A DNA stretch of 54,456 nt from Acidimicrobiia bacterium (GCA_017882905.1 JADGOO010000043.1:1-54456), one strand, 5' to 3'; numbered from the stretch's first letter, positions 9,877-25,879 are shown. The notes: generated from the sequence alone by a model not told the origin. Translations and numbers: made by a program.

Positions 9877-9938
9877 ATTCTCGGCGCCTACTTCGTCCGG
9901 CGTGAGTCCGGCTCGGAGTCGTGCGTGACGCGGCGAAT

Positions 9939-11576
9939 ATGTTGACCCGCGTGACCGACCATTCGTTCGCGCGGGCGTGGCGCACCGTGGCCGAGCTCGC
10001 GCCCGAGCGGGTTGCGATCGAGTGCGGCGAGCAGCGTCTCACGTTCCGTGACTTCTACGACCACGCCACGCGGCTCGCCGGTGTGCTGCACGACGCGGGT
10101 GTGCAACCCGACGACAAGGTCGCGATCGAGCTCGTCAACTCGCCCGAGTACCTCGTGACGTTCTTCGCCACGCAGCTCCTCGGTGCCGTGCCCGTGAACG
10201 TGAACTACCGCTACGTGGGCGCCGAGCTCGCCTACCTGCTCGACAACTCCGACGCCGTCGCGCTCGTGTTCCACGACGAGTTCGCGCCGACGGTGCGCGA
10301 CGCGCTCGCCACGCTCCCCGCCGACCGGCGACCGCGCGTGCTGCTCTCGGCCCGCCACGACGGCAGCGACGCCGACGCCGACGCCGTGGAGGGCGCACGC
10401 GACTTCGCCGCCACCGTCGCGGGGCGCGACCCGTTCATCTCGACGCGTGAGCCCACGGGCGACGATCTCATCTTCTTGTACACAGGCGGCACCACCGGCG
10501 CGCCCAAGGCCGTCATGTGGCGCAGCGACGATCTCTACGTCGCGCTCTGGCAGATGAGCCGTCCCGGTACGCAACCGCCCGACCCGGCGACCACGATCTC
10601 GAAAGGGCATGCGGCAGCCACGCTGCTCCCGGCGTGCCCGCTCATGCACGGAACCGGCCTGTTCATCACGCTCTCCACGCTGTCGGGCGGCGGTCGCGTC
10701 GTGCTCATCGACACGCAGCGGCTCGATGCCGAACGCACGTGGCGCGAGGTCGCCGAACGCGACGTCGCAGTCGTCACGATCGTGGGCGACGCGTTCGCCC
10801 GCCCGCTCCTCGAAGCGCTCGACCACGCGCCCAGCCAGTACGACCTGAGCAGCTTGCGCGCGATCACGTCGTCGGGTGTCACCTGGAGCCCGCAGATCAA
10901 AGCGGGTCTGCTGGGTCACCTCCCCGACGTGACGCTTGTCGACTCGCTCGGCGCGTCGGAAGGCATCATGACCCGCAACGTCTCCGATGCCACGAGCGAC
11001 ATCAAGCCCGCCAGCTTCAAGCTCTCCGACCGCATCGTCGTGGTCGCCGACGACGGCACGCGCTGCCTGCCCGGCGACGAGCGCGTGGGCCTGCTCGGCG
11101 TGGGCGGCCCGATCCCGCTCGGCTACTACAAAGACGACGCCAAGACGGCCACCACGTTCCGTGTCGTCGAAGGCACCCGATACTCGGTACCCGGCGACTA
11201 CGCGATCGTGGAAGCCGACGGCACGATCCGACTCCTCGGACGCGGCTCCGCGTGCATCAACACGGGCGGCGAGAAGGTGTACCCCGAAGAGGTGGAGACC
11301 GCGCTGCGCTCGCACCCGTCGGTCGCCGACTGCGTCGTCGTCGGCGTACCTGACGATCGTTGGGGCGAGATGGTCGTCGCGCTCGTGAGCCCGGCGCGCG
11401 GTGCTGCGATCGACAGCGATGCACTCCGCGCACACTGCCGCTCGAGCCTCGCCGGATACAAGGTGCCGAAGTCGATTGTCGCGCTCGACTCGTTGCAACG
11501 ATCACCGTCGGGCAAGGCCGACTACGCACTGCTGCGCGGCATCGCCGCCGAGCAGCTCACGGAGGTGAAGCAGTGA
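9939..11576 (+). CDS. Acyl-CoA synthetase (AMP-forming, FadD-like)
   Basis: This is an ANL-superfamily enzyme of about 545 aa that activates a carboxylic acid to its acyl-AMP and then the CoA thioester. The AMP-binding P-loop is YTGGTTGAPKAV, the adenine region includes DSLGASEG, and the C-terminal domain has LLGRGSACINTGGEKVYPEEVE with the catalytic lysine in SPSGKADY. The substrate is not evident. Closest character is with actinobacterial FadD enzymes for medium or long chains or steroid side chains. I chose the ATG at 9939; a GTG at 9921 and a GTG at 9951 in the same frame are alternatives. Its stop overlaps the GTG of the rhodanese gene (GTGA), so the two are coupled. Confidence 0.87.
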   Translation: MLTRVTDHSFARAWRTVAELAPERVAIECGEQRLTFRDFYDHATRLAGVLHDAGVQPDDKVAIELVNSPEYLVTFFATQLLGAVPVNVNYRYVGAELAYLLDNSDAVALVFHDEFAPTVRDALATLPADRRPRVLLSARHDGSDADADAVEGARDFAATVAGRDPFISTREPTGDDLIFLYTGGTTGAPKAVMWRSDDLYVALWQMSRPGTQPPDPATTISKGHAAATLLPACPLMHGTGLFITLSTLSGGGRVVLIDTQRLDAERTWREVAERDVAVVTIVGDAFARPLLEALDHAPSQYDLSSLRAITSSGVTWSPQIKAGLLGHLPDVTLVDSLGASEGIMTRNVSDATSDIKPASFKLSDRIVVVADDGTRCLPGDERVGLLGVGGPIPLGYYKDDAKTATTFRVVEGTRYSVPGDYAIVEADGTIRLLGRGSACINTGGEKVYPEEVETALRSHPSVADCVVVGVPDDRWGEMVVALVSPARGAAIDSDALRAHCRSSLAGYKVPKSIVALDSLQRSPSGKADYALLRGIAAEQLTEVKQ

Positions 11577-11908
11577 CCGTGCCCGAAGTGAGCGTCGACG
11601 AAAGCGCCCAGCTGGCGCGTGAGGGCGCGCTCCTGCTCGACGTGCGCAACGACGACGAGTGGACCGCAGGCCACGCGCCCGACGCTACGTACATGACGTT
11701 GTCGCAGGTTCCCGCGCGGTGCGGCGAGCTGCCCCGCGACCGGCGCATCGTCGCGATCTGCCGGGTCGGCGGTCGCTCGGCGAAGGCCACCGAGCTGCTC
11801 GTGGCCCAGGGCTACGACGTGGTGAACATGGTGGGCGGCATGCAGGCCTGGGCCGCGGCCGGACTCCCCGTCGTCACCGATGCCGGCGACCCCGGCACCG
11901 TGATCTGA
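11573..11908 (+). CDS. Single-domain rhodanese-like sulfurtransferase
   Basis: The 111-aa protein is one rhodanese domain. The active loop CRVGGRSAKA carries the cysteine that would hold a persulfide. LLDVRNDDEWTAGHAPDA and NMVGGMQAWAAAG are the other signature segments. It starts at a GTG that overlaps the stop of the acyl-CoA synthetase gene. Single-domain rhodaneses move sulfur or sense redox state; the sulfur acceptor is not known. Why it is coupled to an acyl-CoA synthetase is not clear. A hairpin begins at its stop codon. Confidence 0.88.
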   Translation: MTVPEVSVDESAQLAREGALLLDVRNDDEWTAGHAPDATYMTLSQVPARCGELPRDRRIVAICRVGGRSAKATELLVAQGYDVVNMVGGMQAWAAAGLPVVTDAGDPGTVI

Positions 11909-11926
11909 CCACCCCGGTTGGGTGGT
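11908..11926 (+). terminator. Hairpin after the rhodanese gene
   Basis: ACCACCC and GGGTGGT form a perfect 7-bp stem around CGGTT, beginning at the last base of the rhodanese stop codon. Only a weak T content follows. It sits before the putative -10 box of glpD, so it could separate the two units. Confidence 0.45.
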
Positions 11927-11939
11927 TGCTACTCATGGG

Positions 11940-11945
11940 TAGCCT
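11940..11945 (+). promoter_or_regulatory. Putative -10 box (TAGCCT) of glpD
   Basis: A TANNNT hexamer lies 9 nt before the glpD ATG, consistent with a leaderless transcript. No Shine-Dalgarno sequence precedes the gene. Confidence 0.45.
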
Positions 11946-11954
11946 GGTCGGCTC

Positions 11955-13583
11955 ATGAGCTTCGACCGGGCCGGCGCGCTCGAGCGCCTCGCCGAACAGC
12001 ACTTCGACGTGCTCGTGATCGGCGGCGGGATCACCGGCATGGGCTGCGCGCTCGACGCCGCCACCCGCGGTCTCTCGGTAGCACTCGTGGAGCGCGACGA
12101 CTTCGCCAGCGGCACATCGTCGAAGAGCTCGAAGCTCGTGCACGGGGGCCTGCGCTACCTCCAGCAAAAGGAGATCGCGCTCGTCTACGAAGCCCTCGCG
12201 GAGCGCCAGGTTCTGCGCCACACCGCACCCCACCTCGTGCGCATCCTGCCGTTCCTCCTCCCCGTGTTCAGCGGCAAGGACGGCTTGTTCGACCGGCGCA
12301 TCGCGCGCATCGTGGGCACGTCGATGTGGCTCTACGACTTCACCGGCGGGCTGCGCATCGGCAAACTCCACGAGCGCATCAGCACGCAGCAGGCCCTCGA
12401 CCACGTGCCCACGCTGCGCGCCGAGCGCATCGCCTACGCGTATCTCTACTACGACGCCCGCACCGACGACGCGCGTCTCACGCTCACGATCGGCCGCACG
12501 GCCGCCGATTACGGCGCGGCCCTCGCGAACTACACCCGCGTGGTCGAGCTCACGCGCGACGGCGATCGCGTGTCGGGCGCGATCGTGGAAGCCGACGGGA
12601 ACCGATTCGCGGTACGGGCGCGCACCGTCGTGAACGCGACCGGCGTGTGGGCCGACGACGTGCGCGCGCTCGACGAAGCCACGCATCCGTCGTCGATCCG
12701 TCCGGCCAAGGGCGTGCACATCACCGTGCCGTGGTCGAAGGTGCGCAACGACATCGCCGCGGTCGTGCCCGTGCCGAAGGATCGCCGTTCCGTGTTCGTG
12801 GTGCCGTGGGGCGACGACGGCCAGGGCAACCCGCAGTTCACCTACATCGGCACGACCGACACCGACTACGACGGTCCGGTCGACGATCCGCAGTGCACGC
12901 CCGACGACGTGGCGTACCTGTTGCGGGCGATCAACTTCTCGTGCGACTCCGACATCACCGAAGCCGACGTGGTCGGCACGTGGGCGGGATTGCGGCCGCT
13001 CGTGAAGGCCGCCGCCAGCGGACGTACCGCCGACCTGTCGCGCAAGCACTCGGTGCGCACGTCGGCGAGCGGACTGGTCACCGTCACGGGCGGCAAGCTC
13101 ACCACCTATCGGCGCATGGCCGCCGACACGATCGACGACGTGATGGGCCTGCTCGATCGGCGCGGTCGCAGCACCACGCGCAAGGTCGCGTTGCTCGGCG
13201 CGACCGGATGGGACACCACCGGATGCAGCGACCACCTCTCGGGGCGCTACGGCAGTCTGGCGCGCGAGGTCGGTGCACTGGCGGCGAGCGATCCCGATCT
13301 GGCCCGGCCACTCGTACCCGGTCTGCCCTACACCCGCGCCGAGGCGCTCTACGCGGTGCGCGAGGAGATGGCCCAGACGCTCGACGACGTGCTCGCCCGC
13401 CGAACCCGGGCCCGGTTGCTCGCACGCGACGCGTCGGCCGCGGCCGCCGACGACATCGCCGCGCTGATCGGCCCCGAGCTCGGTTGGGATGCCGCCCACG
13501 CGGCGGCGCAGGCGGCTGCGTACCGCGCCGCGACCGCGCACGAGCGCGAAGCAGCCGACCTGCCGCTCACGATCATCGCCTGA
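11955..13583 (+). CDS. glpD: Glycerol-3-phosphate dehydrogenase, FAD-dependent
   Basis: GlpD oxidises glycerol 3-phosphate to dihydroxyacetone phosphate at the membrane and feeds electrons to quinone. The 542-aa protein has the FAD dinucleotide-binding motif VIGGGITGMGCALDAATRG, followed by SSKSSKLVHGGLRYLQ, typical of GlpD. Later motifs include VNATGVWADDV and the C-terminal VTGGKLTTYRRMA. The C-terminal helical domain (about 400-540) is present. The start is fixed by the conserved N-terminus and the TAGCCT box upstream. The downstream DLH, AGPS-like and kinase genes on the same strand suggest a glycerol or glyceryl-lipid region, although one minus-strand gene lies in between. Confidence 0.93.
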   Translation: MSFDRAGALERLAEQHFDVLVIGGGITGMGCALDAATRGLSVALVERDDFASGTSSKSSKLVHGGLRYLQQKEIALVYEALAERQVLRHTAPHLVRILPFLLPVFSGKDGLFDRRIARIVGTSMWLYDFTGGLRIGKLHERISTQQALDHVPTLRAERIAYAYLYYDARTDDARLTLTIGRTAADYGAALANYTRVVELTRDGDRVSGAIVEADGNRFAVRARTVVNATGVWADDVRALDEATHPSSIRPAKGVHITVPWSKVRNDIAAVVPVPKDRRSVFVVPWGDDGQGNPQFTYIGTTDTDYDGPVDDPQCTPDDVAYLLRAINFSCDSDITEADVVGTWAGLRPLVKAAASGRTADLSRKHSVRTSASGLVTVTGGKLTTYRRMAADTIDDVMGLLDRRGRSTTRKVALLGATGWDTTGCSDHLSGRYGSLAREVGALAASDPDLARPLVPGLPYTRAEALYAVREEMAQTLDDVLARRTRARLLARDASAAAADDIAALIGPELGWDAAHAAAQAAAYRAATAHEREAADLPLTIIA

Positions 13584-13610
13584 ACCAACGCGCTTCCCCG
13601 CGCCGCCGGA

Positions 13611-13628
13611 TCGGCGCTGTCGCGCCGA
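13611..13628. terminator. Bidirectional hairpin between glpD and the convergent gene
   Basis: TCGGCGC and GCGCCGA form a perfect 7-bp stem with a TGTC loop. It lies 28 bases after the glpD stop and four bases before the stop of the convergent minus-strand gene, so it could terminate both. No long T-run is seen. Confidence 0.5.
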
Positions 13629-13631
13629 CGT

Positions 13632-14216
13632 TCAGGCGTGCCGGCCGAGCATCGCGAGCAGCACGGCTTGGGGACCGTCGCCGTCGGGAGCGGTCTCGGT
13701 GCCGAACATCCCGCTCGCCGCGAGCATCGCGGCCTGGGGTCGCACCACTTCGAGGCACGCCTCGGCCAGCGCGGGATCGAGCCGCGCGGGCTGGCCCGTC
13801 GCCACCGCGAGATCCCAGCCGTGCACGAACACATCGAGGAAGCGGTGCCCGCAGTACACCGAACCGGGTACCGGTCCGTACGACACGGCGCAGGGCGCGT
13901 CCATCGCGCCCGGCGCTTCGAACGCGGCCCGCGCCGCGACGGCCGAAGCCTCGTAGGCACCGAGCGCATCGACGCCGAGCACGTCGCCGTCGAGGCGGTC
14001 ACCGACGTCGGCGATCGTGCGGCCGGCGGCGAGCTCCGCGGCCCACCAGTTGCCGCTCACCACGTGGTTGAGGAGCGCGCGCACGTCCCAACCCGCACAC
14101 GGCGTGGCCTTGGCGAGCTGGTCGTCGCTCACCCCCGCGACGATCGCATGCGTCGCGTCGAGCGCCTCCGCGTGCCACCGCACCACGCCCTGCACCGATG
14201 CGTCGAGCTCCACCAT
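13632..14216 (-). CDS. DinB-like / TIGR03086-type metal-binding protein
   Basis: The 194-aa protein has the helical-bundle signature of the DinB/mycothiol-dependent maleylpyruvate isomerase group: TPCAGWDVRALLNHVVSGNWW near residues 38-58, with a candidate metal histidine in NHV and others in CGHRFLDVFVHGWDLA. Proteins of this kind are common in actinobacteria, and several use mycothiol or bind zinc. The actual reaction is not known. The ATG at 14216 is supported by GGAGG in the complement 8 nt upstream. A much longer frame runs further upstream but is antisense to the next two genes. It diverges from the dienelactone hydrolase gene and converges with glpD. Confidence 0.82.
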   Translation of the reverse strand: MVELDASVQGVVRWHAEALDATHAIVAGVSDDQLAKATPCAGWDVRALLNHVVSGNWWAAELAAGRTIADVGDRLDGDVLGVDALGAYEASAVAARAAFEAPGAMDAPCAVSYGPVPGSVYCGHRFLDVFVHGWDLAVATGQPARLDPALAEACLEVVRPQAAMLAASGMFGTETAPDGDGPQAVLLAMLGRHA

Positions 14217-14280
14217 CGCGACCACCTCCGGTGGGCATCTTGGTTCGCGGCGGCCCCGGTGTCGAGCGCGGCGACCGTCG

Positions 14281-14286
14281 TACGCT
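14281..14286 (+). promoter_or_regulatory. Putative -10 box (TACGCT) of the dienelactone hydrolase gene
   Basis: A TANNNT hexamer lies 8 nt before the ATG at 14295. This suggests a leaderless transcript for the DLH gene and possibly for the following flavoprotein and kinase genes. Confidence 0.45.
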
Positions 14287-14294
14287 GTCGCCCA

Positions 14295-15011
14295 ATGAGC
14301 ATCACCACGAGATACGAGAAGATCACCGCCCACGACGGCGGTCGGTTCGAGGCGTACTGCGCCATCCCCGACGGTGGGCACGGGCCCGGAATCCTCGTCT
14401 TCCAAGAGATCTTCGGCATCAACGACAACATGCGCGGCTTGGCCGAACGACTCGCGGGTGAAGGGTTCGTGGCCCTCGTCCCCGACATGTTCTGGCGGCT
14501 GCAGCCGCGCTTCGAGAGCAAGGACGAGTCGGGCATGGCCGATGCGTTCGCCCTCGTGCAACAGTTCGACCGTGAGCTCGGCATGGCCGACATCGCCGCC
14601 ACGCACGCACATCTCGTCGCGATGCCGGAGTGCACCGGCAAGGTCGGCGCGGTCGGGTTCTGCCTCGGAGGTGCGTTGGCGTTCGCGTGTGCCGCCACCA
14701 GCAGGGTCGACGGGCGCGGTCCCGACGCCGCAGTCTGCTACTACGGCTCGGCGATCAACGACATGCTCGCACTCGCCGACGCCCTCGAGTGCCCCACGAT
14801 GTACCACTATGGCAACGACGACGCGTTCATCCCACCTGAGAACATCAACGCCGTCGAACAAGCCGTCGACGGTCGAGAGGGCGTCGAGTTCCACCGCTAC
14901 GAGGCCGGCCACGCGTTCAGCAACTGGGATGCGCCGTCGTTCTACCGGCAGGAGCCGGCCGACATCGCGTGGGAGCGAACCCTCGCGTTCTTCCACCGCA
15001 CGCTCGACTGA
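14295..15011 (+). CDS. Dienelactone hydrolase family protein
   Basis: The 238-aa protein is an alpha/beta hydrolase of the DLH family. The nucleophile is the cysteine in VGFCLGGALAF, the acid is an aspartate in YGNDDAFIPP and the histidine is in EAGHAFSN. ILVFQEIFGIND near residue 36 contains the glutamate that DLH uses to control its cysteine. The type enzyme opens dienelactone in chlorocatechol breakdown, but many family members act on other esters and no aromatic-degradation genes are nearby. It is followed after 12 bases by the AGPS-like flavoprotein, so these genes may be co-transcribed. Confidence 0.9.
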   Translation: MSITTRYEKITAHDGGRFEAYCAIPDGGHGPGILVFQEIFGINDNMRGLAERLAGEGFVALVPDMFWRLQPRFESKDESGMADAFALVQQFDRELGMADIAATHAHLVAMPECTGKVGAVGFCLGGALAFACAATSRVDGRGPDAAVCYYGSAINDMLALADALECPTMYHYGNDDAFIPPENINAVEQAVDGREGVEFHRYEAGHAFSNWDAPSFYRQEPADIAWERTLAFFHRTLD

Positions 15012-15023
15012 TCGGCGACCATC

Positions 15024-16526
15024 ATGGCGACCACTCCGCGGCGCGGCGCGCCGACCCCGCCCATCGCGCTCGCGGCCGGCGCGATCACCGATCACGTCGT
15101 GGCGCAGCGCGTCGAGGTCGACGACGCGTTGGCCACCCGATTGCGGGCCGCGTGCACCGAGGTCATCGACGACGCAACCGCGCTCGCCGAAGCCAGCCGC
15201 GACTGGTGGCCGCTCGCGATGCACTGGGCCCGCGCCGGCGAGGTGGGCATGCGAGCCGCGTTGATCGCCCGGCCCGGTTCCGCGGCCGAAGTCGCGAACG
15301 TCGTACGGGTGTGCAACGAAGCGCGCGTGCCGCTCACCACGGCAGGTGGGCGCAGCGGCGTGTGCGGCGCCAGCATCCCACTCCACGGCGGCGTCGTGCT
15401 CGACACCACCGCACTCGGCGGCATCCGCGGCGTCGACCGCACCTCGTTGCTCGTCGACGTGCGCGCGGGCACGTTCGGCGACGTGTTCGAAGACACCCTG
15501 CGCGATGAGCACGACCTCACGTGCGGTCACTGGCCACAGTCAATGGCGCTCTCCACGGTGGGTGGGTGGCTCGCGTGTCGCGGCGCCGGACAGCTCTCCA
15601 CTCGCTACGGCAAGATCGAAGACATCGTCGAGGGCCTCGACGTGGTGCTCGCCGACGGCACCGAGATCCACACCGGCGGCGCACCGCGGGCGGCGGTCGG
15701 ACCGGATCTCACGCAGCTGTTCGTGGGATCCGAAGGCACGTTGGGCGTGATCACCGGCGCGCGGTTGCGCGCGCATCCGACGCCAGTGGCGGAACGGCGC
15801 GCGGCGTACACGTTCGCAACATTCGCCGACGGCATCGACACGATGCGCCGCATCGTGCAACGGGGCGCCACACCCGCCGTGTTGCGGCTCTACGACTCCG
15901 TCGAAGCTGATCGTTCGTACAAGACCGGAGACCGGCACCTGCTGCTCGTGCTCGACGAAGGCGATGCGGCGATCGTCGACGCCGTGCTCCACATCGTCCA
16001 CGACGAGTGCGCGCGACGCGGCGCGGAACCGGCCGACGTCGCGCTCGTCGAACAATGGTGGGGACATCGCAACGACGTGAGCGCGCTCGAAGCGCTCGTG
16101 TCGCGCGACATCGTCGTCGACACGATGGAGATCAGCGCACCGTGGGCCGCGCTCCCCGCGATCTACGACGCCACGCGCGCGGCGATCCTGGCGGTCGATC
16201 ACGCCATGGTCGCTTCCGCGCACCAGTCGCATTCGTACCTCGATGGCGGCTGCCTCTACTTCACGTTCGCGGCGCGACCGCCCGTCGACGAGAAGGACGC
16301 GTGCTACCGCGCGTTGTGGGACGCCGGGCAGAACACCGTGCTCGAACACGGCGGCGCGCTGAGCCACCACCACGGCGTAGGTCTCAACCGAGATCGATTC
16401 GTTGCCGGCGCGCTCGGCGCCGGCTTCGAGGTGCTCGCCGCGCTGAAGCGCACGCTCGACCCCAACGGGATCCTCAACCCGGGCAAGCTCGGCCTCGCGT
16501 CGCCCTGGGGTCCGGCAACGTGGTGA
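15024..16526 (+). CDS. FAD-binding oxidase, alkyl-DHAP synthase-like
   Basis: The 500-aa protein belongs to the VAO/PCMH flavoprotein family. The FAD domain has TTAGGRSGVCGASIPLHGG near 105-125 and FVGSEGTLGVITGARLRAH. The C-terminus carries LSHHHGVGLNR, the histidine-rich active-site motif of alkyldihydroxyacetonephosphate synthase (AGPS), and ends with LDPNGILNPGKLGL. AGPS exchanges the acyl chain of acyl-DHAP for an alkyl chain in ether-lipid synthesis, but bacterial relatives also include D-lactate and glycolate-type dehydrogenases. Its stop overlaps the GTG of the kinase gene by four bases, and glpD is close by, so a substrate related to glycerol or DHAP is a reasonable inference. Activity is unproven. 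Confidence 0.87.
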   Translation: MATTPRRGAPTPPIALAAGAITDHVVAQRVEVDDALATRLRAACTEVIDDATALAEASRDWWPLAMHWARAGEVGMRAALIARPGSAAEVANVVRVCNEARVPLTTAGGRSGVCGASIPLHGGVVLDTTALGGIRGVDRTSLLVDVRAGTFGDVFEDTLRDEHDLTCGHWPQSMALSTVGGWLACRGAGQLSTRYGKIEDIVEGLDVVLADGTEIHTGGAPRAAVGPDLTQLFVGSEGTLGVITGARLRAHPTPVAERRAAYTFATFADGIDTMRRIVQRGATPAVLRLYDSVEADRSYKTGDRHLLLVLDEGDAAIVDAVLHIVHDECARRGAEPADVALVEQWWGHRNDVSALEALVSRDIVVDTMEISAPWAALPAIYDATRAAILAVDHAMVASAHQSHSYLDGGCLYFTFAARPPVDEKDACYRALWDAGQNTVLEHGGALSHHHGVGLNRDRFVAGALGAGFEVLAALKRTLDPNGILNPGKLGLASPWGPATW

Positions 16527-18010
16527 GCTCCGCCGTGAAGGTGCTCGTGGTCGACGTCGGCACGAGTGGCGTGCGCGTGGCCGTCATCGACGGCGACGGC
16601 CACTTCGTCCTCGATCGCTACGAGGAGCTGCTGCCTTCGTCGCCCGCCGACGGCCTCGTCGAGATCGACGGCGCGGCGCTCGCAGCCGCGGTCATCAGAC
16701 TCGCGCTCGCGGCCGTCGACACGGCCGGGCCGGTCGACGGCGTCGGCATCACGAACCAGCGCGCGTCGGTGGTCGTCTGGGACGCGGCGACGGGTGAGCC
16801 GATCGGCCCCGGCCTCGGCTGGCAAGACCTGCGCACGATCGGCGCGTGCCTCGCGGCGCGCGAGCACGGATTGCGACTCGCGCCGAACCAGAGCGCCACG
16901 AAGGTGCAGTGGCTGCTCAACGCTCATGCCGGTGGCCGAGACCGCGAAGCGCTGCGGGTGGGCACGATCGACACGTGGGTGATCGCCGCGCTCAGCCGGG
17001 CAACGGCGCACGTGACCGATGCGAGCAACGCCGCGGTCACCGGCCTCACCGACGGAGACGCCCGCGACTGGTCGCCTACCGCGCTCGACGCGCTCGGTAT
17101 CCCGCGCGCCACGATGCCCGCGCTCGTGTCATCAGTCGGCGAGTGCGCGCGCGCCGAGGTGCTTCCCGGCGCGCCACCGATCGTCGCGGTGCTCGGCGAC
17201 CAACAGGCGTCGCTCGCCGGGCAGAGCTGCGTGCGGCCGGGGGTCGCCAAGATCACCTTCGGCACGGGCGGCATGCTCGACACCGTGGTCGATGCTCCAC
17301 TCACGGTGCATCAGCGCATGGGTCACGGGACGTTTCCGATCGTCGCGTGGCGCGCGCCCGGCGGAGCCACGAGCCACGCGGCCGGCCCGGATACGACCAC
17401 CACGTGGGGCATCGAAGCGATCATGCTCGCCGCGGGCACCAACGTGCAGTGGCTCCGCGACGGCCTCGGTCTGGTCACCACGAGCGCCGAGACGCACGAG
17501 GTCGCCGCGCAGTGCCGCGACTCGGGAGGCGTGGTCTTCGTCCCCGCGCTCATGGGCCTCGGTACGCCCAACTGGGACTACGGGGCGCGCGGCACGCTGC
17601 TCGGCGTCACGCGCGGCACCGGGCGCGCCGAGGTCGTGCGGGCCGTGCTCGAAGGAATCGCGCACCGGGGCGCCGACCTCGTCGACGCGGCCGTCGCCGA
17701 CGCGGGCATCAGCATTGATGCGCTGCGGGTGGATGGTGGCATGAGCGACAACGCCACGTTCGTCCAAGCGCTGGCCGATGCGACCCAGCGCACCGTCGAG
17801 GTTGCGCCCGTGCGCGACGCCACCACGCTCGGCGCCGCGCTCATGGCCCTCGTCGCACTTGGCCATCACCGCACCATCGACGACCTCGCAACAACGTGGC
17901 GCCCACGCGTGCGGGTCGCGCCGCAGTCGGTGCTCGACCGCGAGCGTTGGCGCGCCGCGGTCACACGCGCCGAACGATGGCTGCCCGAGCTGTCGTCGAT
18001 CGAGTTCTGA
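16523..18010 (+). CDS. FGGY-family kinase, glycerol-kinase-like
   Basis: This 495-aa protein resembles glycerol kinase. It has VVDVGTSGVRVAV at the N-terminus, GITNQRASVVVWD, GLGWQDLRT, LGDQQASLAGQ with FGTGGMLD, and the C-terminal VDGGMSDNATFVQALAD. The WQD-R and GDQQ motifs fit GlpK. However, the residue after the arginine in ITNQR is alanine where GlpK normally has glutamate (a glycerol contact), and the phosphate loop is GTSG rather than GTTSS. The substrate could be glycerol or a related polyol. The start is the GTG at 16523, coupled to the flavoprotein stop. The neighbouring glpD favours glycerol; confidence in the family is high and in the exact substrate moderate. Confidence 0.85.
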   Translation: MSSAVKVLVVDVGTSGVRVAVIDGDGHFVLDRYEELLPSSPADGLVEIDGAALAAAVIRLALAAVDTAGPVDGVGITNQRASVVVWDAATGEPIGPGLGWQDLRTIGACLAAREHGLRLAPNQSATKVQWLLNAHAGGRDREALRVGTIDTWVIAALSRATAHVTDASNAAVTGLTDGDARDWSPTALDALGIPRATMPALVSSVGECARAEVLPGAPPIVAVLGDQQASLAGQSCVRPGVAKITFGTGGMLDTVVDAPLTVHQRMGHGTFPIVAWRAPGGATSHAAGPDTTTTWGIEAIMLAAGTNVQWLRDGLGLVTTSAETHEVAAQCRDSGGVVFVPALMGLGTPNWDYGARGTLLGVTRGTGRAEVVRAVLEGIAHRGADLVDAAVADAGISIDALRVDGGMSDNATFVQALADATQRTVEVAPVRDATTLGAALMALVALGHHRTIDDLATTWRPRVRVAPQSVLDRERWRAAVTRAERWLPELSSIEF

Positions 18011-18019
18011 ACCAGCCGG

Positions 18020-18071
18020 ACTCAGGCGCTTGACTCAGGCACTCGACTCAGGCACTCGACTCAGGCGGTGG
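18020..18071 (+). repeat. 13-bp tandem repeat, four copies
   Basis: Four adjoining 13-bp units begin with ACTCAGGC; the middle two are identical (ACTCAGGCACTCG). They fill the junction between the stop of the kinase gene and the 3' end of the convergent gene. The last unit contains that gene's stop codon. Each unit holds TCA, a TGA stop on the minus strand. Confidence 0.85.
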
Positions 18072-18459
18072 GCTCCGCGCGCCGCTCGGCGGCGAGATCA
18101 CGGCTCAGCTTCAGGAGCGTGCCGCCGGTGGCGAGCGCGCCCACACCCAGCACTCGCGACCGCCACGGCAAACCACGAGATGCCAGTGACGTGACACCGT
18201 CGACCACATCGCTGATCGCGCCCATCGACACCCACTCGGCATCGTCGCCACGCTCTTTGAGGTTCGTGAGTGCGCCCACACCGAGCGCCAGGTCGCGGAT
18301 GCCGGCGAAACGGGTGAGCGCCTTGGCTTCCGGCGTGCTCGTGGCGAAGAACAGCCGCGTCACGAGACCGGGTAGAAGCACACACGAGAGGCCGATCACG
18401 CAACGGCCGCGCGACATGATGATGGCGATCTGGCGGGAATCGAGGTCACTCAGGTCCAC
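18061..18459 (-). CDS. Small membrane protein, DUF4267-like
   Basis: The 132-aa product has hydrophobic stretches around MSRGRCVIGLSCVLLPGLV and LALGVGALTNL, and a further one near RVLGVGALATGGTLLKL. The segment FAGIRDLALGVGAL resembles the motif of DUF4267-type small integral membrane proteins, for which no function is established. I place the start at the GTG at 18459 (VVDLSDLDSRQ), 11 bases after the stop of the upstream gene. It is the last gene of a six-gene minus-strand run, and its stop codon lies within a 13-bp tandem repeat. Confidence 0.65.
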   Translation of the reverse strand: MDLSDLDSRQIAIIMSRGRCVIGLSCVLLPGLVTRLFFATSTPEAKALTRFAGIRDLALGVGALTNLKERGDDAEWVSMGAISDVVDGVTSLASRGLPWRSRVLGVGALATGGTLLKLSRDLAAERRAEPTA

Positions 18460-18470
18460 GACGGGCGACG

Positions 18471-19409
18471 TTAGGTGACCTGCAGCCATTCGGCCCAGCC
18501 ATGGCCCACGCCGCCGTCGGCGCGATCGAAGCGGCACAGGGCTCGGGCGAGTCGAGCCCGGCGACCGTCGGGCGCGTCGAGGGGTACCGGGGCGAGCGCG
18601 AGCGGAACGACGCGCACCACGAGCTGCGGGTCGTCGCCGGCGTCGAACCCGGCACCGAGCCGGTACTCGGCAGCACCGGCCTGCCCGTCGCTGGCCGCGC
18701 GGCTGTGCACCGCGCCCCGACCATCGGCGCGCTCACGGCGATCGCCGCGCCACAGCGCGGCTTCATCGGCGGTTGCGGTTCCGGCCGTGCCGGCGTCGAA
18801 CCCGAACACGCGCACCGCCATCGCGTCGTCGAACGCCACCGCGCCCTGATGCCAGTCGGCCGCCCACCAGTGAACCGGACCCCACGAGTGGTCGCGCACG
18901 CCAGACCCGGCGAATGTGAGCACGTCGGCGCCGAGCAGGATCTCGCCCTGCACAGTTCCTGGTTGCGCGTACCCGACGCTGGGCTGCGCGTGCTCGCACG
19001 GCGCGGCCGTCGCCTCCCAATCGAGCTCCAGGCCGACCGCGATTCGGTGGCCGATCTCGCCGTGATACGCATCGAGCGGGTCGTCGAGGCGCACGCCGAA
19101 CGCCTCCACGTTCACGGCCCAGTGCTCCATGGGCGTCTCGCACACCAGCTCGCACCACAGCCCTTCGGATCGAGCGAGCAGGTGCGCGGGCGGCAACGTC
19201 GGCACTTCGTGGTCGCGCACCACGACGGTTCCCTCCGGTGTCACGAGATGCACCCAGCACCAAACCCGACGCTGATTGGGCAACGCGGCGACACGAACGA
19301 AGCCACCGAGTGAGCCGTCGGTCGCCGCGAAATCGACGTACCAGCTCTCGGTCCACCACGGATCGGGGCCGGGCTCGTGCGCGGCGCCGTCACCCGCGCG
19401 CTCGATCAC
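18471..19409 (-). CDS. Lipocalin-like protein related to CrtC/AttH (DUF7064-like)
   Basis: The 312-aa protein looks like the two-lobed lipocalin-like fold of the CrtC (hydroxyneurosporene hydratase)/AttH superfamily. Features are PWWTESWYVDFAATDGSLGG at the start, the motif SGVRDHSWGPVHWW in the second lobe (the RDHSWG core is typical) and many tryptophans. No signal peptide is seen, so it is probably cytoplasmic. CrtC members hydrate carotenoids, but most actinobacterial relatives have no known reaction. Near residues 215-245 there is a run rich in Arg, Ala and Asp (GDRRERADGRGA) that may be a family-specific insertion. It sits between the 383-aa unknown gene and the small membrane protein. 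Confidence 0.68.
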   Translation of the reverse strand: MIERAGDGAAHEPGPDPWWTESWYVDFAATDGSLGGFVRVAALPNQRRVWCWVHLVTPEGTVVVRDHEVPTLPPAHLLARSEGLWCELVCETPMEHWAVNVEAFGVRLDDPLDAYHGEIGHRIAVGLELDWEATAAPCEHAQPSVGYAQPGTVQGEILLGADVLTFAGSGVRDHSWGPVHWWAADWHQGAVAFDDAMAVRVFGFDAGTAGTATADEAALWRGDRRERADGRGAVHSRAASDGQAGAAEYRLGAGFDAGDDPQLVVRVVPLALAPVPLDAPDGRRARLARALCRFDRADGGVGHGWAEWLQVT

Positions 19410-19433
19410 CGGACCGCGTTCACCGGATCGGGC

Positions 19434-20585
19434 TCACGGTATCTGGGGGTAGTACACGGTCGGGTCGACCACCTCGGGTGCCTCGACCGAACCGTCGATC
19501 ATCTCGAGGAACGGGTAGAGGTCGAGCGAGTCGCGCGGCACCGTCCAGTCGAGGTCATCGGCAATGCCGGCCGCTACCGCGAACGGCCGCAAGAAGGAGA
19601 AGTACACGTAGGCGCCGCAGTTGATCTTGTCGCGCCGTTCCATCGCGGCGATGTTGCGATACTGCGCGCGTTGGGCTGACTTCGCGGCGGCTGCAAGCGA
19701 GTCGATCGCATCATCGCCGAGCGGCACGAGCCTGGCCGCGCTCGTGTCGAACAACGCGAAGGCTTCGACGTGGGGCAGGTAGTCCTCGGGGTCGGTGACG
19801 GCCGTTCCGAAGTCGGACACTCCGAACCGCACGTCATCACCGAGCACGAAGGCAGCCAGCACCGTCGTGTACGGCATGTCGCCGGCAATCGCGCTGCTCC
19901 ACGCGAAGTCGGAGGAGCCGAGCTTCACGAAGTGACGGAGCAGCAACGTTCTGCCGTCGGGCAGCTGGTACGGCCCGCTGTCCTGATAACCCGACCGCGT
20001 GTCGAACCACAACAGGAACTCGTACGACGTGAGCAACGCGTTGAGGCGCGTGACCCGAGCCCGGTGTGCGTCGTCACGGATCGGTACGCAGGCCCGGCTG
20101 ATCTCGTCGACGTACTCGGCATACGGCGTGACGCGGCCGTCGGCATCAGCCGCTTGGTGCGTGCCGTCGGCGCGATACGCGCCCGATGCGCGCTCCCAGA
20201 AGTCGAACACGGTTGCCATGCGCGCCACGTCGGCGTCCCAATCGAGCATGCCGGCACCGGCGAGCACGTTGCGCCCGACGAGCGGGAAGTTCGCGATGCT
20301 CCAGAGGCGCACGGTGTCGATCTCGTTGCCGACGCGGTGTCCGGCGGCACCGATCTCTTCCGGCGGGCACGCCGCGCTGATCTCCACCATCAGCTCCGGG
20401 TAGCGCCGGTACGCCTCGACGCACGCCACCACGATGTACGCCGTGATCGGGATCAGGGCCGACTCGAGCGCGGTGCGCTGCGCCGTGAGACGGAACGAGA
20501 TCTCCGAGTGGTAGCGGAGCCACCGGTTCACCTCGTCCTTGCCCCACGCCGCGGGGATCGTCAAGCCGCCACCGGCATCAGTCAT
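19434..20585 (-). CDS. Conserved-looking protein of unknown function
   Basis: I do not recognise this 383-aa protein. It is soluble in character, with helical N-terminal parts (RLTAQRTALESALIPITAYI) and aromatic-rich segments such as LLTSYEFLLWFDTRSGYQ, LPDGRTLLLRHFVKLGSSDF and INCGAYVYFSFLRPFAV. It lacks an ATP-grasp glycine-rich loop, a P-loop, a Rossmann motif and a signal peptide. Many internal Trp, Tyr and Phe and several charged conserved-looking patches (KLGSSDFAW, MERRDKINCG) suggest an enzyme or a binding domain. It starts 16 bases after the stop of the swivel-domain gene, so the two are almost certainly co-transcribed and may work together. The frame is long and unbroken and shows normal GC-rich codon use. 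Confidence 0.78.
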   Translation of the reverse strand: MTDAGGGLTIPAAWGKDEVNRWLRYHSEISFRLTAQRTALESALIPITAYIVVACVEAYRRYPELMVEISAACPPEEIGAAGHRVGNEIDTVRLWSIANFPLVGRNVLAGAGMLDWDADVARMATVFDFWERASGAYRADGTHQAADADGRVTPYAEYVDEISRACVPIRDDAHRARVTRLNALLTSYEFLLWFDTRSGYQDSGPYQLPDGRTLLLRHFVKLGSSDFAWSSAIAGDMPYTTVLAAFVLGDDVRFGVSDFGTAVTDPEDYLPHVEAFALFDTSAARLVPLGDDAIDSLAAAAKSAQRAQYRNIAAMERRDKINCGAYVYFSFLRPFAVAAGIADDLDWTVPRDSLDLYPFLEMIDGSVEAPEVVDPTVYYPQIP

Positions 20586-20601
20586 CGAGCTCGCCGAATC
20601 G

Positions 20602-20958
20602 TCATCGTGTGCGCTGCACGCGTGCCGGCTCTTCGGAACAGTCGACCGTGATCTCGTCGCCGTCGCTCGGCCATTCGCCGGCGTGCAGCACCGCGCCCAT
20701 CACGCACGGCACTTGGTACTCGCGGCTCACGATGCCGATGTGACTCAGCGGCGTGCCCGAGAGGCACACCACCGCGGCGAGGTCGTCGAAGATCGGGGCG
20801 AGGAACGTCGCGCCGGCATCGGCCACACACGCGATCACGCCGACGGCGCTGTCGTCCATCAAGGCGAGCACGTCGTCCGGTGCGTCGAGGCGGCGCCAGC
20901 GGCCGTGCACCGGCTCGGCCGCGAACACGCGTGTACCAGTGGCGATCTCGTCACTCAT
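20602..20958 (-). CDS. Standalone PEP-utiliser phosphohistidine (swivel) domain
   Basis: The 118-aa protein is a single PEP-utilising enzyme mobile domain. In PPDK, PEP synthase and rifampin phosphotransferase this domain swings a phosphorylated histidine between two active sites. The core CLSGTPLSHIGIVSREYQVP followed by CVMGA carries the histidine, H73, in the expected SH-x(4)-SRE-x(3)-P context. PSDGDEITVDCS is the usual closing strand. The ATP-grasp nucleotide domain and the PEP/pyruvate barrel that normally flank it are absent from the protein and from the operon. A TAGCAT box lies 9 nt before the ATG, although the gene also overlaps the CDF gene by eight bases. Function in this reduced form is unknown; the 383-aa neighbour is the first candidate partner. 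Confidence 0.82.
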   Translation of the reverse strand: MSDEIATGTRVFAAEPVHGRWRRLDAPDDVLALMDDSAVGVIACVADAGATFLAPIFDDLAAVVCLSGTPLSHIGIVSREYQVPCVMGAVLHAGEWPSDGDEITVDCSEEPARVQRTR

Positions 20959-21898
20959 CGGGCGGCGATGCTACCGGCGCGACATCCTTGGCCGCCTCGT
21001 AGAGGTCGGGTTCGATGAAGATGAAGTGTGCCGCGGCCCGAACCGCGCGGATCTCCACCTCGACGGCGTCGATGCAGCGGGCGAGCTGCGCCACCGTGAG
21101 GTTCGCGTCGAACTCCACCTTGGTGGCGATGATGATGTCGTCGGGACCGAGGTGCACCGTGCGCAGGTGGATGATGCGCCGCACGCTCGGTCCGCGCAGG
21201 ATCGCTTCGCGAATCGCGATCTCGTCCTCGGGCGCCACCGATTCACCGATCAGGAGACTCGACATCTCGTACGCGAGCAGGCCGGCGATGAGCACGAGCA
21301 GCACGCCGATGGCGAGGCTGCCGAGCGCGTCCCACCGGCTGTTCCCGGTGACCGACGCGAGCGCCACTCCGGTGAGGGCGAACACGAGGCCGACGAGCGC
21401 GCCGGCATCTTCGAGCAACACCACCGGGAGCTCCGGACTCTTCGTGTGCCGCACGAAGGCGAGCAACGAGCGCCCGCCACGTCCGGGCCGCGCCTCGTTG
21501 AGCGCGGTGCGAAACGAGAAGGACTCCATGGCCACCGCCACGAGCAGCACGGCGATCGCCCACACCGGCGAATCCACCTTGTGCGGCGTGCGCAGCTTGT
21601 CGATCCCTTCGACCACCGCGAACAGGCCGCCCGCGCTGAAGAGCACGAGCGCCACCATGAACGACCAGAAATAGCGCACGCGCGCGTACCCGAACGGGTG
21701 CTTGGCATCGGGCGCACGCGTGGCCCGATGCGACCCGAACATGAGCAGGCCCTGGTTGACCGTGTCGGCGGTCGAGTGGATCGACTCGGCGAGCATCGAC
21801 GCCGCGCCGGTGAAGGCGAACGCGACCAGCTTCGACAGCGCGATACCGAGGTTCGCGCAGAACGCGGCGACGATCGCGCGCCTGCTGCCCTCGTGCAC
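20951..21898 (-). CDS. Cation diffusion facilitator family transporter
   Basis: The 315-aa protein is a CDF exporter, a proton-coupled antiporter for divalent metals such as zinc. It has about six membrane segments and a cytoplasmic C-terminal domain (about 230-305). The first half of the transport site is intact: H41 and D45 in AESIHSTADTVNQ. The second half, normally HxxxD in the fifth segment, is replaced by E163-D164 (VVLLEDAGALVGL), as in SLC30A9-like members, so metal choice may differ or transport may be weak. A GTG start lies 6 nt after a TAGCGT box. It is nine bases after fumC and overlaps the swivel-domain gene. Confidence 0.9.
   Translation of the reverse strand: MHEGSRRAIVAAFCANLGIALSKLVAFAFTGAASMLAESIHSTADTVNQGLLMFGSHRATRAPDAKHPFGYARVRYFWSFMVALVLFSAGGLFAVVEGIDKLRTPHKVDSPVWAIAVLLVAVAMESFSFRTALNEARPGRGGRSLLAFVRHTKSPELPVVLLEDAGALVGLVFALTGVALASVTGNSRWDALGSLAIGVLLVLIAGLLAYEMSSLLIGESVAPEDEIAIREAILRGPSVRRIIHLRTVHLGPDDIIIATKVEFDANLTVAQLARCIDAVEVEIRAVRAAAHFIFIEPDLYEAAKDVAPVASPPDE
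20968..20973 (-). promoter_or_regulatory. Putative -10 box (TAGCAT) of the swivel-domain gene
   Basis: A TANNNT hexamer lies 9 nt before the ATG, inside the 3' end of the CDF gene. It could give the swivel-domain gene and the three genes after it a transcript of their own. Confidence 0.4.
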
Positions 21899-23414: not shown

Positions 23415-23915
23415 TCAGAGCAGGGTGACCCCTTCGTGGGCGAGGAGCCAGCGCTTGGTCTGCAAGCTGCCGCCGGTGTGGAGTCCGCCGCCGTAACCGC
23501 CGAGCCGGCCACCCGCGCCCACCACCCGGTGGCACGGGATCACGAACGGCACCGGGTTGCGGCGCATGATCGAACCGACGGCGCGCGCCGCGCCGGGACG
23601 GCCCGCCATCGCGGCCAGCTCGCCGTAGGCGACCGTCTCACCCCACGACACTTCCTTGCCCAGCGTGCTGTACACGTGCCGCGCGAGGGGCGGCAGGTCG
23701 TGGTGACCGAGGTCGAGATCGAGATCGAAGTCGTGGCGCCGGCCGCGGAACCAGTCGTCGAGCTGGCGGGCGACGGCCCGGTCGGCGCGGCCGCCGTCGC
23801 GCCCACCTTCGAGGGCGGCCGCGAGCTCGTCGCCGAAGCGAATCTCGCGCACCCCGCGTTCACCCGCTTCCACGACGATGGGCCCGATCGGTGTGTCCTG
23901 ACTCCAGAAGCTCAC
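23415..23915 (-). CDS. ogt: Methylated-DNA--protein-cysteine S-methyltransferase
   Basis: This DNA-repair protein transfers the alkyl group of O6-alkylguanine to its own cysteine. The 166-aa sequence has the active-site motif [11 protein letters not shown] with acceptor C128, the DNA-binding [20 protein letters not shown] and a C-terminal [15 protein letters not shown]. The start is the GTG at 23915, which overlaps the molybdopterin oxidoreductase stop (GTGA). The length matches the Ogt type, without an Ada regulatory domain. Linkage to the oxidoreductase is probably only transcriptional. Confidence 0.93.
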
Positions 23916-25879
23916 AGTGCGGTCACCTCCACCCGAGTGTCGTTGAAGCACGCTCCGCCGGCCACATCGGAGAGCGTGTCGGGCACGAGCGCGTTGGCGG
24001 TGAGCCCACCGTCGAGCTCCCTGCACCACAGTCCCTTGGGCATCGACGCCACGCCGGGCCGGAGGTCGGCGTCGATGCGCAACGTGGTGACGATCTGCGC
24101 ACGGTCGTTGCCCACGCGCACGCGGGCGCCGTCGACGAGGGCGCGCGCCTCGGCGTCGACGGGATGCATGTGGATCGCCGGGTCGGCGCTCTGGAACTCG
24201 CCGAACATCGAGTTGATGGTCTTGTGGGTGGCCGGCGTGAGCAACGTGATCGGATGCGGATCGTCGAGCGGCGCGAAGCGCGGCGCGCCGAGACCCGGTA
24301 GCCCGGCCAAGTGGGCGCGGCGGCCATCGTGCGACGGGAACGTGTCGCGGAACTGCACGGTGGTGCCATCTGCCCGTAGCTCGCGCGCGCCTTCGTAGGT
24401 GCCGTCGTCGGTGAGGCTGCGCGCCAGCACCTGTTCGCGCGACGGGTCGTAGCGCGTGATGTCGAAGCCCAGCCGTGCCGCGAGATCGGCGGCGACTTCG
24501 TTGTTCGAACGACTCTCCCCCACCGGGTCGATGACCGGTGTCACCTCTTGCAGCGCGTACGCGCCGTACGACGCGGCGAGGTCGTGCACTTCGAAGTGCG
24601 TCGTGGCCGGCAGCACCACGTCGGCGTAGCGAGCGGTGTCGGTGAGCACTTGGTCATGCACCACGGTGAACAGGTCGTCGCGGGCGAGTCCGCGGAGCAC
24701 CGCGCCCTGATTCGGGTTCGTGGCCGCAAGGTTCGAACCCTGCACGAACAGCACGGCGATGCGAGGATCGAGGTTCGGGTCGCAGAGCGCCGTGCCGAAC
24801 GTGTTCATGTTGAAGTGGCGGGCCCGGCGTCGTTCGGGCGGCGTGTCAGGATCACGAGGATCGAACGCGAGCGGCGTGGCATTGCCCAAGCTCGCGAGCA
24901 CGCCCGAGCCGCGCACGCCGAACTGTCCGGTGAGCGCGGGCAGCGCGAACACCGCACCACACGCCGACCCGCCGTTGCGGTTGCGCTCGAGGCCCCAACC
25001 CACGCGGATCAGACCGGGACGGATCGTGGCGAGGTCGCGAGCGAACGCGGCGATGTCGTTCGCGGCGAGCCCGCATTCGCTCGCGGCACGGTCGAGCGTG
25101 AACGGTTCGGCGGCGGCGAGCAGCTCGTCGAGACCCTCGGCGTGCGCGGCGAGGAACTCGCGGTCGAGCAGATCGTTGCGGGCGAGCTCCCGCGCTACCG
25201 CGAGCGCGAGCACCACGTCGGTGCCGGGGCGTATGGGAAGGTGCAGATCGGCGCGCTTGGCCGTTGCGGTGGCGCGCGGGTCGATCACGACGACGCGCGC
25301 GCCGTGCTCACGTTGCGCTCGCGTGATGAGCGGCGCCACGTGCACGTTCGTGATGGCCGGGTTCGCGCCCCACACGACGATCAGGCGCGAGTGCAACAGG
25401 TCGCGGGGATCGGCCGACAGCATGTCGCCGTACACCGCGTGGTAGGCGACGCTGAACGTGGCCGCACAGATGGTGTGGTCGACACGGCTCGCTCCGAAGC
25501 GGCGCCACAACCGCATGCCTACCTCGTCCTGCAGCACCGGCGCCGACGAGTTGTACACGTAGGGCACCACCGACTCGGGCCCGAAGCGCTCAGCCGCGTC
25601 GGTCATGCGCGCGGCCACGACATCGAGCGCCTCCGCCCACGACGCGGCGCGGAACTGACCAGCGCCCTTGGCGCCCGTGCGCACGAGCGGTGTCAGCACG
25701 CGCTCGGGCGCGTACACACGCTGCGCGTGGTGCTTCACCTTCTGGCAGATGAAGCCGTCGGTGATCGCGTTCCCCGCCGCGGCGTCGACAGCGACGATGC
25801 GCCCGTCGTCGACCGTGACCGTGAGCGAGCATGTGTCGGGACAGTCGAGCGGGCAGGCCGTCACGTGCTCGGTGGTCAC
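23912..25879 (-). CDS. Molybdopterin-dependent oxidoreductase
   Basis: The 655-aa protein belongs to the DMSO-reductase superfamily. C9, C13, C17 and C45 (ACPLDCPDTC, then GFICQK) form an N-terminal 4Fe-4S site. YVYNSSAPVLQDEVGMRLWRR, VVWGANPAITNVHVAPLI and QGSNLAATNPNQG follow the molybdopterin-binding pattern. The C-terminal dinucleotide-binding domain (about 540-655) contains HPVDAEARALVDGARVRVGN. No Tat signal precedes the cluster, so the enzyme is cytoplasmic. Substrate and electron partner are unknown; no ferredoxin or small subunit is adjacent. The GTG start lies 6 nt after a TACGCT box. It is coupled to MGMT downstream and lies 22 bases after mdh. Confidence 0.9.
   Translation of the reverse strand: MTTEHVTACPLDCPDTCSLTVTVDDGRIVAVDAAAGNAITDGFICQKVKHHAQRVYAPERVLTPLVRTGAKGAGQFRAASWAEALDVVAARMTDAAERFGPESVVPYVYNSSAPVLQDEVGMRLWRRFGASRVDHTICAATFSVAYHAVYGDMLSADPRDLLHSRLIVVWGANPAITNVHVAPLITRAQREHGARVVVIDPRATATAKRADLHLPIRPGTDVVLALAVARELARNDLLDREFLAAHAEGLDELLAAAEPFTLDRAASECGLAANDIAAFARDLATIRPGLIRVGWGLERNRNGGSACGAVFALPALTGQFGVRGSGVLASLGNATPLAFDPRDPDTPPERRRARHFNMNTFGTALCDPNLDPRIAVLFVQGSNLAATNPNQGAVLRGLARDDLFTVVHDQVLTDTARYADVVLPATTHFEVHDLAASYGAYALQEVTPVIDPVGESRSNNEVAADLAARLGFDITRYDPSREQVLARSLTDDGTYEGARELRADGTTVQFRDTFPSHDGRRAHLAGLPGLGAPRFAPLDDPHPITLLTPATHKTINSMFGEFQSADPAIHMHPVDAEARALVDGARVRVGNDRAQIVTTLRIDADLRPGVASMPKGLWCRELDGGLTANALVPDTLSDVAGGACFNDTRVEVTAL

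Follow-up and report, generated by a model that had tools for sequence, protein, structure and literature searches.

The phosphohistidine swivel protein and the 383-residue protein (P383) encoded beside it in the window, the whole 54,456-nucleotide stretch of Acidimicrobiia DNA that was analysed, form a unit conserved far beyond chance and probably represent a new form, divided between proteins, of the small-molecule-phosphorylating enzymes. With a probability of roughly 0.55, the two are read here as subunits of a split small-molecule dikinase acting in the mode of HpeHI, PpsAB and rifampin phosphotransferase (RPH) but with another kind of acceptor subunit. Characterisation of split phosphohistidine kinases that initiate the breakdown of aromatics is still sparse, and the 2025 paper on the hydroxyphenylethanone dikinase HpeHI expects further members in other processes (PMC12167813).

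The swivel protein, P383 and their operon

On the minus strand, the genes run in the order CDF transporter, swivel, P383, DUF7065/7064 protein and small membrane protein (Table 1). The open reading frames, strand and lengths that the earlier note gave for the last four agree with the ORF coordinates, and its gaps of 16, 24 and 11 bases between them were recomputed with the same result. The 11-base gap implies a GTG start for the membrane protein gene at 18459; a start at 18537, which gives the longest ORF, runs into the preceding gene. Relatives of the membrane protein, often 131–135 aa long, agree with the start at 18459, and homologues occupy the same place in 11 loci. The DUF4267 value of this protein, below the Pfam cut-off, was obtained with the longer start, whereas the DUF7065 and DUF7064 matches in the third gene (47.1 and 35.9 bits) are each over the cut-off. 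The end of the CDF transporter gene overlaps the swivel gene by 8 bases, and the transcript may therefore begin further upstream. Several loci from the same family also have the transporter gene close to the pair; it may be co-transcribed with the swivel gene, its tie to the module being uncertain.

Table 1. Features of the operon and flanking genes in the window
Feature	Coordinates	Strand	Description
Swivel gene, 118 aa	20602-20958	-	Free-standing phosphohistidine swivel (PEP-utiliser mobile) domain, PF00391
P383 gene, 383 aa	19434-20585	-	Partner protein without Pfam family
DUF7065 + DUF7064 gene, 312 aa	18471-19409	-	CrtC/AttH lipocalin-like; Pfam 3.6e-12 and 1.1e-8
Small membrane protein gene	18061-18459	-	DUF4267-like (sub-threshold); Pfam 0.0011
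CDF cation transporter gene	20951-21898	-	PF01545, 4.8e-38
Converging genes	9921-18010	+	Acyl-CoA synthetase, GlpD-like, FAD-linked oxidase (GlcD/AGPS-like), glycerol-kinase-like
Further minus-strand ORFs	23415-25879	-	6-O-methylguanine DNA methyltransferase, molybdopterin oxidoreductase

The Pfam scan found neither an ATP-grasp domain nor a PEP-binding domain in the operon, so that the ATP-grasp domain and PEP-binding TIM barrel that accompany the swivel in the PEP synthase/PPDK class are both missing, as the earlier note had stated for the swivel protein and the operon. The window locus does not have the look of a catabolic cluster. The plus-strand genes listed in Table 1 converge on the operon, and the GlpD-like, FAD oxidase and glycerol-kinase-like genes among them adjoin the pair in about 14–16 relatives; as functional partners these three are no more than a lead, being syntenic, yet with the FAD oxidase also common in genomes without P383. 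Elsewhere in the window, the ORF for a 6-O-methylguanine DNA methyltransferase shares >100 bases with the end of the molybdopterin oxidoreductase ORF, and translation of the methyltransferase probably begins further downstream.

The swivel protein matches PF00391 over residues 41–109 (E = 2.7e-10, 40.1 bits against a cut-off of 23.1), with His73, in the motif GTPLSH, aligned with the catalytic histidine; it is thus the complete PEP-utiliser mobile domain with H73 that had been proposed. On this alignment, His73 is presumed to be the phosphoryl carrier. The family profile matches PEP synthase, RPH and enzyme I chains among PDB sequences and the HpeH swivel at 98.4% (1e-14, hhalign), and the window protein has matches to the PigC and RedH models as well. 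An AlphaFold model of the swivel reached a pLDDT of 58, and its top Foldseek matches, none of them below E 0.001, included a swivel-bearing pyruvate kinase and RPH.

P383 was found in 29 of 61 near-relative genomes, 36 of 247 genomes in the class sample and 6 of 396 in the phylum sample (own genome counted in each), as well as in nine plasmid records from Rhodococcus, Novosphingobium, Paraburkholderia and Methylibium, all nine with a swivel match. The hosts of the pair are members of the same class, other Actinomycetota, Rhodococcus plasmids and plasmids of Alpha- and Betaproteobacteria; no relative was found in the viral contigs searched. Taking as a pair a swivel that is on the same strand within 0.7 kb of P383 or fused to it, 50 distinct P383 sequences are paired, with the swivel first in 43 and the order reversed in 7, and three swivel-P383 fusions occur in Rhodococcus plasmid loci. 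Small overlaps and gaps between the two genes suggest translational coupling. Exceptions are a Novosphingobium swivel about 8 kb downstream of P383 and a P383 match at a contig end (L055). The histidine, the preceding serine, the arginine at +6 and the proline at +11 are present in 50/50 paired swivels, and the distance matrices of swivel and P383 are closely correlated (Mantel r = 0.91; 2000 permutations all gave lower values).

The earlier note had taken the two proteins for an undescribed conserved pair, which these 50 pairs from two phyla bear out; among the literature results listed, no paper describes the pair. It had also named two outcomes that would speak against this. Non-conservation of the genes as neighbours is ruled out by their adjacency or fusion in the 50 pairs. 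The other, that the swivel gene is the remnant of a full-length PEP-utilising enzyme decayed in relatives, would explain why just one domain of what is usually a large enzyme is present, but a free-standing form with the histidine intact in every one of the 50 pairs and a conserved partner in two phyla rules it out for practical purposes, leaving it a vanishingly small probability.

Of 23 P383 family members scanned against Pfam, 22 had no match and one a marginal match (E = 0.069); in NCBIfam, P383 had a single, sub-threshold match. Its invariant residues are S42, Y50, R105, F190, D195, R197, D202, G204, P205, Y206, G211, R217, W229, T261, P266, Y309, M315 and Y328. Comparisons with hhalign, in which the positive controls gave 100% (HpeH acceptor against RPH) and 98% (swivel against HpeH swivel), led to the rejection of homology to the HpeH/PpsA acceptor domain (0.3%, HpeH N-domain), to the RPH acceptor (0.1%), to the ATP-grasp or PEP-binding domains of PPDK and PEP synthase (at most 0.4%) and to the lipocalin-like or p202 proteins (at most 0.4%), although a comparison of profiles leaves room for a distant common fold. 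The P383 profile gave one chance match among PDB sequences, to viral glycoprotein B (E = 0.87); AlphaFold runs from three sequences reached a pLDDT of 52, and Foldseek was uninformative. From its context, P383 is presumed to be the acceptor-binding and catalytic subunit, and most likely it binds the acceptor.

Fuller loci and candidate phosphoryl donors

Relatives on plasmids carry a larger set of genes. The operon on pRB98 of Rhodococcus oxybenzonivorans begins with swivel, a P383-like protein of 525 aa (P525), an AMP ligase, a protein of ~200 aa (p202) and a PPDK-like protein, and continues with biotin carrier (BCCP), biotin carboxylase, carboxyltransferase, OB-fold, thiolase and phosphatase genes; upstream lie two more swivel/P383 units, one of them fused, and a DUF7065-like gene. 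The Hpe pathway uses a kinase-carboxylase-phosphatase set, the same set as in this operon (PMC9618137). Novosphingobium pSA1 combines the pair with p202, PPDK-like, carboxylase subunit, ligase and thiolase genes, and the pair, p202 and a PPDK-like gene are found together in Paraburkholderia PGU19, Rhodococcus 008 and two genomes of family f15 (G037 and G027). In the two f15 loci (L052 and L053, respectively), three tandem pairs match pairs A, B and C of pRB98 one to one, and L053 has a divergent fourth pair besides. Phosphatases near pairs comprise a HAD protein in L056, Y_phosphatase3 in pRB98 and homologues in R. opacus and Methylibium.

The window's own genome (G000, completeness 100) encodes three PF00391 proteins, namely the window swivel, a PEP synthase on contig C223 and a PPDK on C178, the latter two each with its own swivel and together the only PF01326 (ATP-grasp) proteins. 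The earlier note had envisaged phosphotransfer with an ATP-grasp protein lacking a swivel and encoded elsewhere in the same genome. No such free-standing partner was found there with PF01326, nor is there a dedicated ATP-grasp beta subunit of the HpeHI/PpsAB/CreHI class; the idea of a split PEP-synthase-like system stands, with a PPDK-like protein as the likely partner in relatives. In a single-contig genome with the pair (G028, 99% complete), the sole PF01326 protein is a canonical PPDK, and most pair-bearing genomes of the order have no dedicated ATP-grasp partner. PPDK_N, as a donor, does not co-occur significantly with the pair (28/29 genomes vs 28/32, p = 0.36).

A PPDK-like ATP-grasp protein in cis is a property of the relatives on plasmids and in family f15. 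These proteins match PPDK_N and the swivel family, with no match to PF02896, and contain none of the C-terminal PEP-site motifs of PPDK that were searched for, which the canonical PPDKs of G000 and G028 possess. Lacking the PEP-binding domain and its motifs, they are therefore unlikely to use PEP as a substrate. In the fuller relatives, the PPDK-like protein is likely the nucleotide-binding partner.

Alternatively, P383 could itself be a new donor-binding domain that takes ATP, PEP or another donor and phosphorylates the swivel, with transfer to a third protein or molecule and no need of a PPDK. Such a role, which we consider quite unlikely, would suit the majority of pair-bearing genomes of the order, in which the pair lacks a dedicated ATP-grasp partner, and several of the invariant arginines and aspartates could bind phosphates. 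It would, however, make the PPDK-derived ATP-grasp protein of the fuller clusters redundant, and RPH/HpeH-type swivel proteins replace the pair near p202.

A proposed split dikinase and its relation to known systems

As a dikinase, the system would turn ATP and an acceptor into AMP, Pi and a phospho-acceptor by way of phosphohistidine, in several steps. His73 of the swivel would receive its phosphate in the ATP-grasp site of a PPDK-type protein, the phospho-swivel would dock on P383, and P383 would hand the phosphoryl group to the organic acceptor that it binds, one bearing a hydroxyl or an enolisable carbonyl. In the plasmid clusters, the phosphorylated acceptor could then undergo CoA ligation or biotin-dependent carboxylation, followed by dephosphorylation. 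The weakest step concerns the window's genome, where the housekeeping PPDK or PEP synthase would need to serve as donor in trans.

HpeHI offers the closest precedent for this course: its ATP-grasp subunit phosphorylates the swivel histidine, which then phosphorylates a bound phenol, HpeH alone shuttles phosphate between phenols, and HpeHI requires the histidine (PMC12167813). Like the pair, HpeHI, CreHI and PpsAB consist of separate subunits; the HpeH swivel is homologous to that of the pair, and hpe clusters contain carboxylase and phosphatase genes, as do the plasmid clusters of the pair. In contrast to HpeHI, the swivel is here a protein of its own, P383 is not homologous to the HpeH acceptor by profile, any ATP-grasp partner derives from PPDK and carries a swivel itself, instead of being a single domain of the HpeI/PpsB type, and the module adds DUF7065/7064 and p202 proteins. 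Because neither the acceptor domain nor a dedicated ATP-grasp subunit was found in this genome, the pair is not filed as HpeHI/PpsAB-type. RPH follows the same logic of ATP-grasp, acceptor and swivel, but, unlike the pair, in one chain (ATP-grasp, RIF-binding, swivel), and its acceptor domain matches HpeH at 100% and P383 at 0.1%. PPDK and PEP synthase share the swivel family, and the PPDK-like partners of the pair derive from PPDK; the pair differs in having no PEP/pyruvate domain, and the PPDK-like partners have lost theirs or let it degenerate. Homology of the swivel domain extends to PTS enzyme I, whereas the module has neither a PEP-binding domain nor HPr.

Several points weigh against a dikinase. 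P383 has no similarity to acceptor, ATP-grasp or PEP-binding domains and its role is drawn from context, most pair-bearing genomes of the order have no dedicated ATP-grasp partner, the presence of PPDK_N does not follow that of the pair, and the window locus is unlike a catabolic cluster. Tentatively, and with some doubt, the proposal may be taken further: P383 might represent a new fold family of acceptor-binding subunits within an undescribed four- to five-part phosphotransfer system that also comprises the free-standing swivel, DUF7065/7064, p202 and a PPDK derivative blind to PEP. Such a system would phosphorylate organic molecules to activate them, and in the lineage of the window it would rely on the housekeeping PPDK or PEP synthase for its kinase. 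The set with its uncharacterised acceptor subunit is widespread, in plasmid clusters of Rhodococcus, Novosphingobium and Paraburkholderia, in Methylibium next to cobalamin mutase genes, and in numerous genomes of the class to which the window belongs. If the proposal is true, many annotations as 'hypothetical protein' or 'PEP-utilizing enzyme' would become a testable enzyme system, and it raises the question of whether a foreign swivel domain is accepted for phosphorylation by a housekeeping PPDK.

Companion proteins and alternative roles

DUF7065/7064-like proteins adjoin the pair in many loci, including the Rhodococcus, Paraburkholderia and Methylibium plasmids; no paper on DUF7065/7064 was found. 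Their recurrence, together with the PigC and RedH matches of the swivel, would be consistent with an activated ligation. In PigC and RedH, transient phosphorylation via the swivel drives condensation or dehydration; here a comparable reaction, in which the DUF7065/7064 protein may share, would release no phospho-product. The phosphatase genes close to several pairs point instead to a phospho-intermediate that is stable, and we regard this reading as distinctly improbable.

The second companion, p202 (A4), has a conserved C-terminus of the SxHxxWFExHE type and an N-terminus that weakly resembles a winged helix (wHTH), and is annotated as MarR family in Methylibium. It was found in 25/29 P383-positive against 4/32 P383-negative genomes (Fisher 4e-9, phylogeny ignored), and in 16 of 23 compared genomes its gene is upstream of the pair and divergent from it. 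From loci and co-occurrence, both p202 and the DUF7065/7064 gene belong to the module; the extent given in the earlier note is thus right for the swivel, P383, lipocalin-like and membrane genes but too small, since p202 belongs too. Near p202 in G021 and G027 is a protein with a C-terminal HpeH-swivel match and a remainder that is RPH-like by eye, so that, on these matches, an RPH/HpeH-type protein takes the place of P383. A DUF7065-like gene is also close to this protein in G027, the likeness of the G021 neighbour being weak (E = 0.009). In G017 (L200:5223-7679), a half PPDK with swivel and PEP-binding domains and no ATP-grasp in frame ends in a fused p202, possibly a PEP-dependent phosphorylation device.

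The strongest competitor of the dikinase reading is a role in regulation or in a phosphorelay, on the model of PTS-controlled regulators. PPDK or PEP synthase would phosphorylate the swivel as a read-out of PEP/ATP, P383 would be a ligand sensor and p202 the output regulator. The divergent position of p202, its MarR annotation and weak wHTH matches, the G017 fusion to swivel and PEP-binding domains and the lack of a dedicated ATP-grasp protein in most pair-bearing genomes of the order are all in keeping with such a device. On the other hand, the catabolic clusters have several copies of the pair, next to genes for PPDK-like proteins, carboxylases and phosphatases, a setting that suits an enzyme; p202 is within the operon in those clusters, and it can regulate without P383 as sensor; we therefore judge the role rather unlikely.

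In the window's own genome, p202 is encoded on contig C97 (10737-11414, L193), adjoining an acyl-CoA dehydrogenase gene, and the same contig bears a second DUF7065-like gene. On the plasmid of Methylibium petroleiphilum PM1 (L179, 17806-22555 and 38446-41871), DUF7065-like, P383, swivel and p202 genes are located near methylmalonyl-CoA-mutase-family/B12 genes, and the Y-phosphatase homologue sits beside Rieske oxygenase genes, about 16 kb further along.
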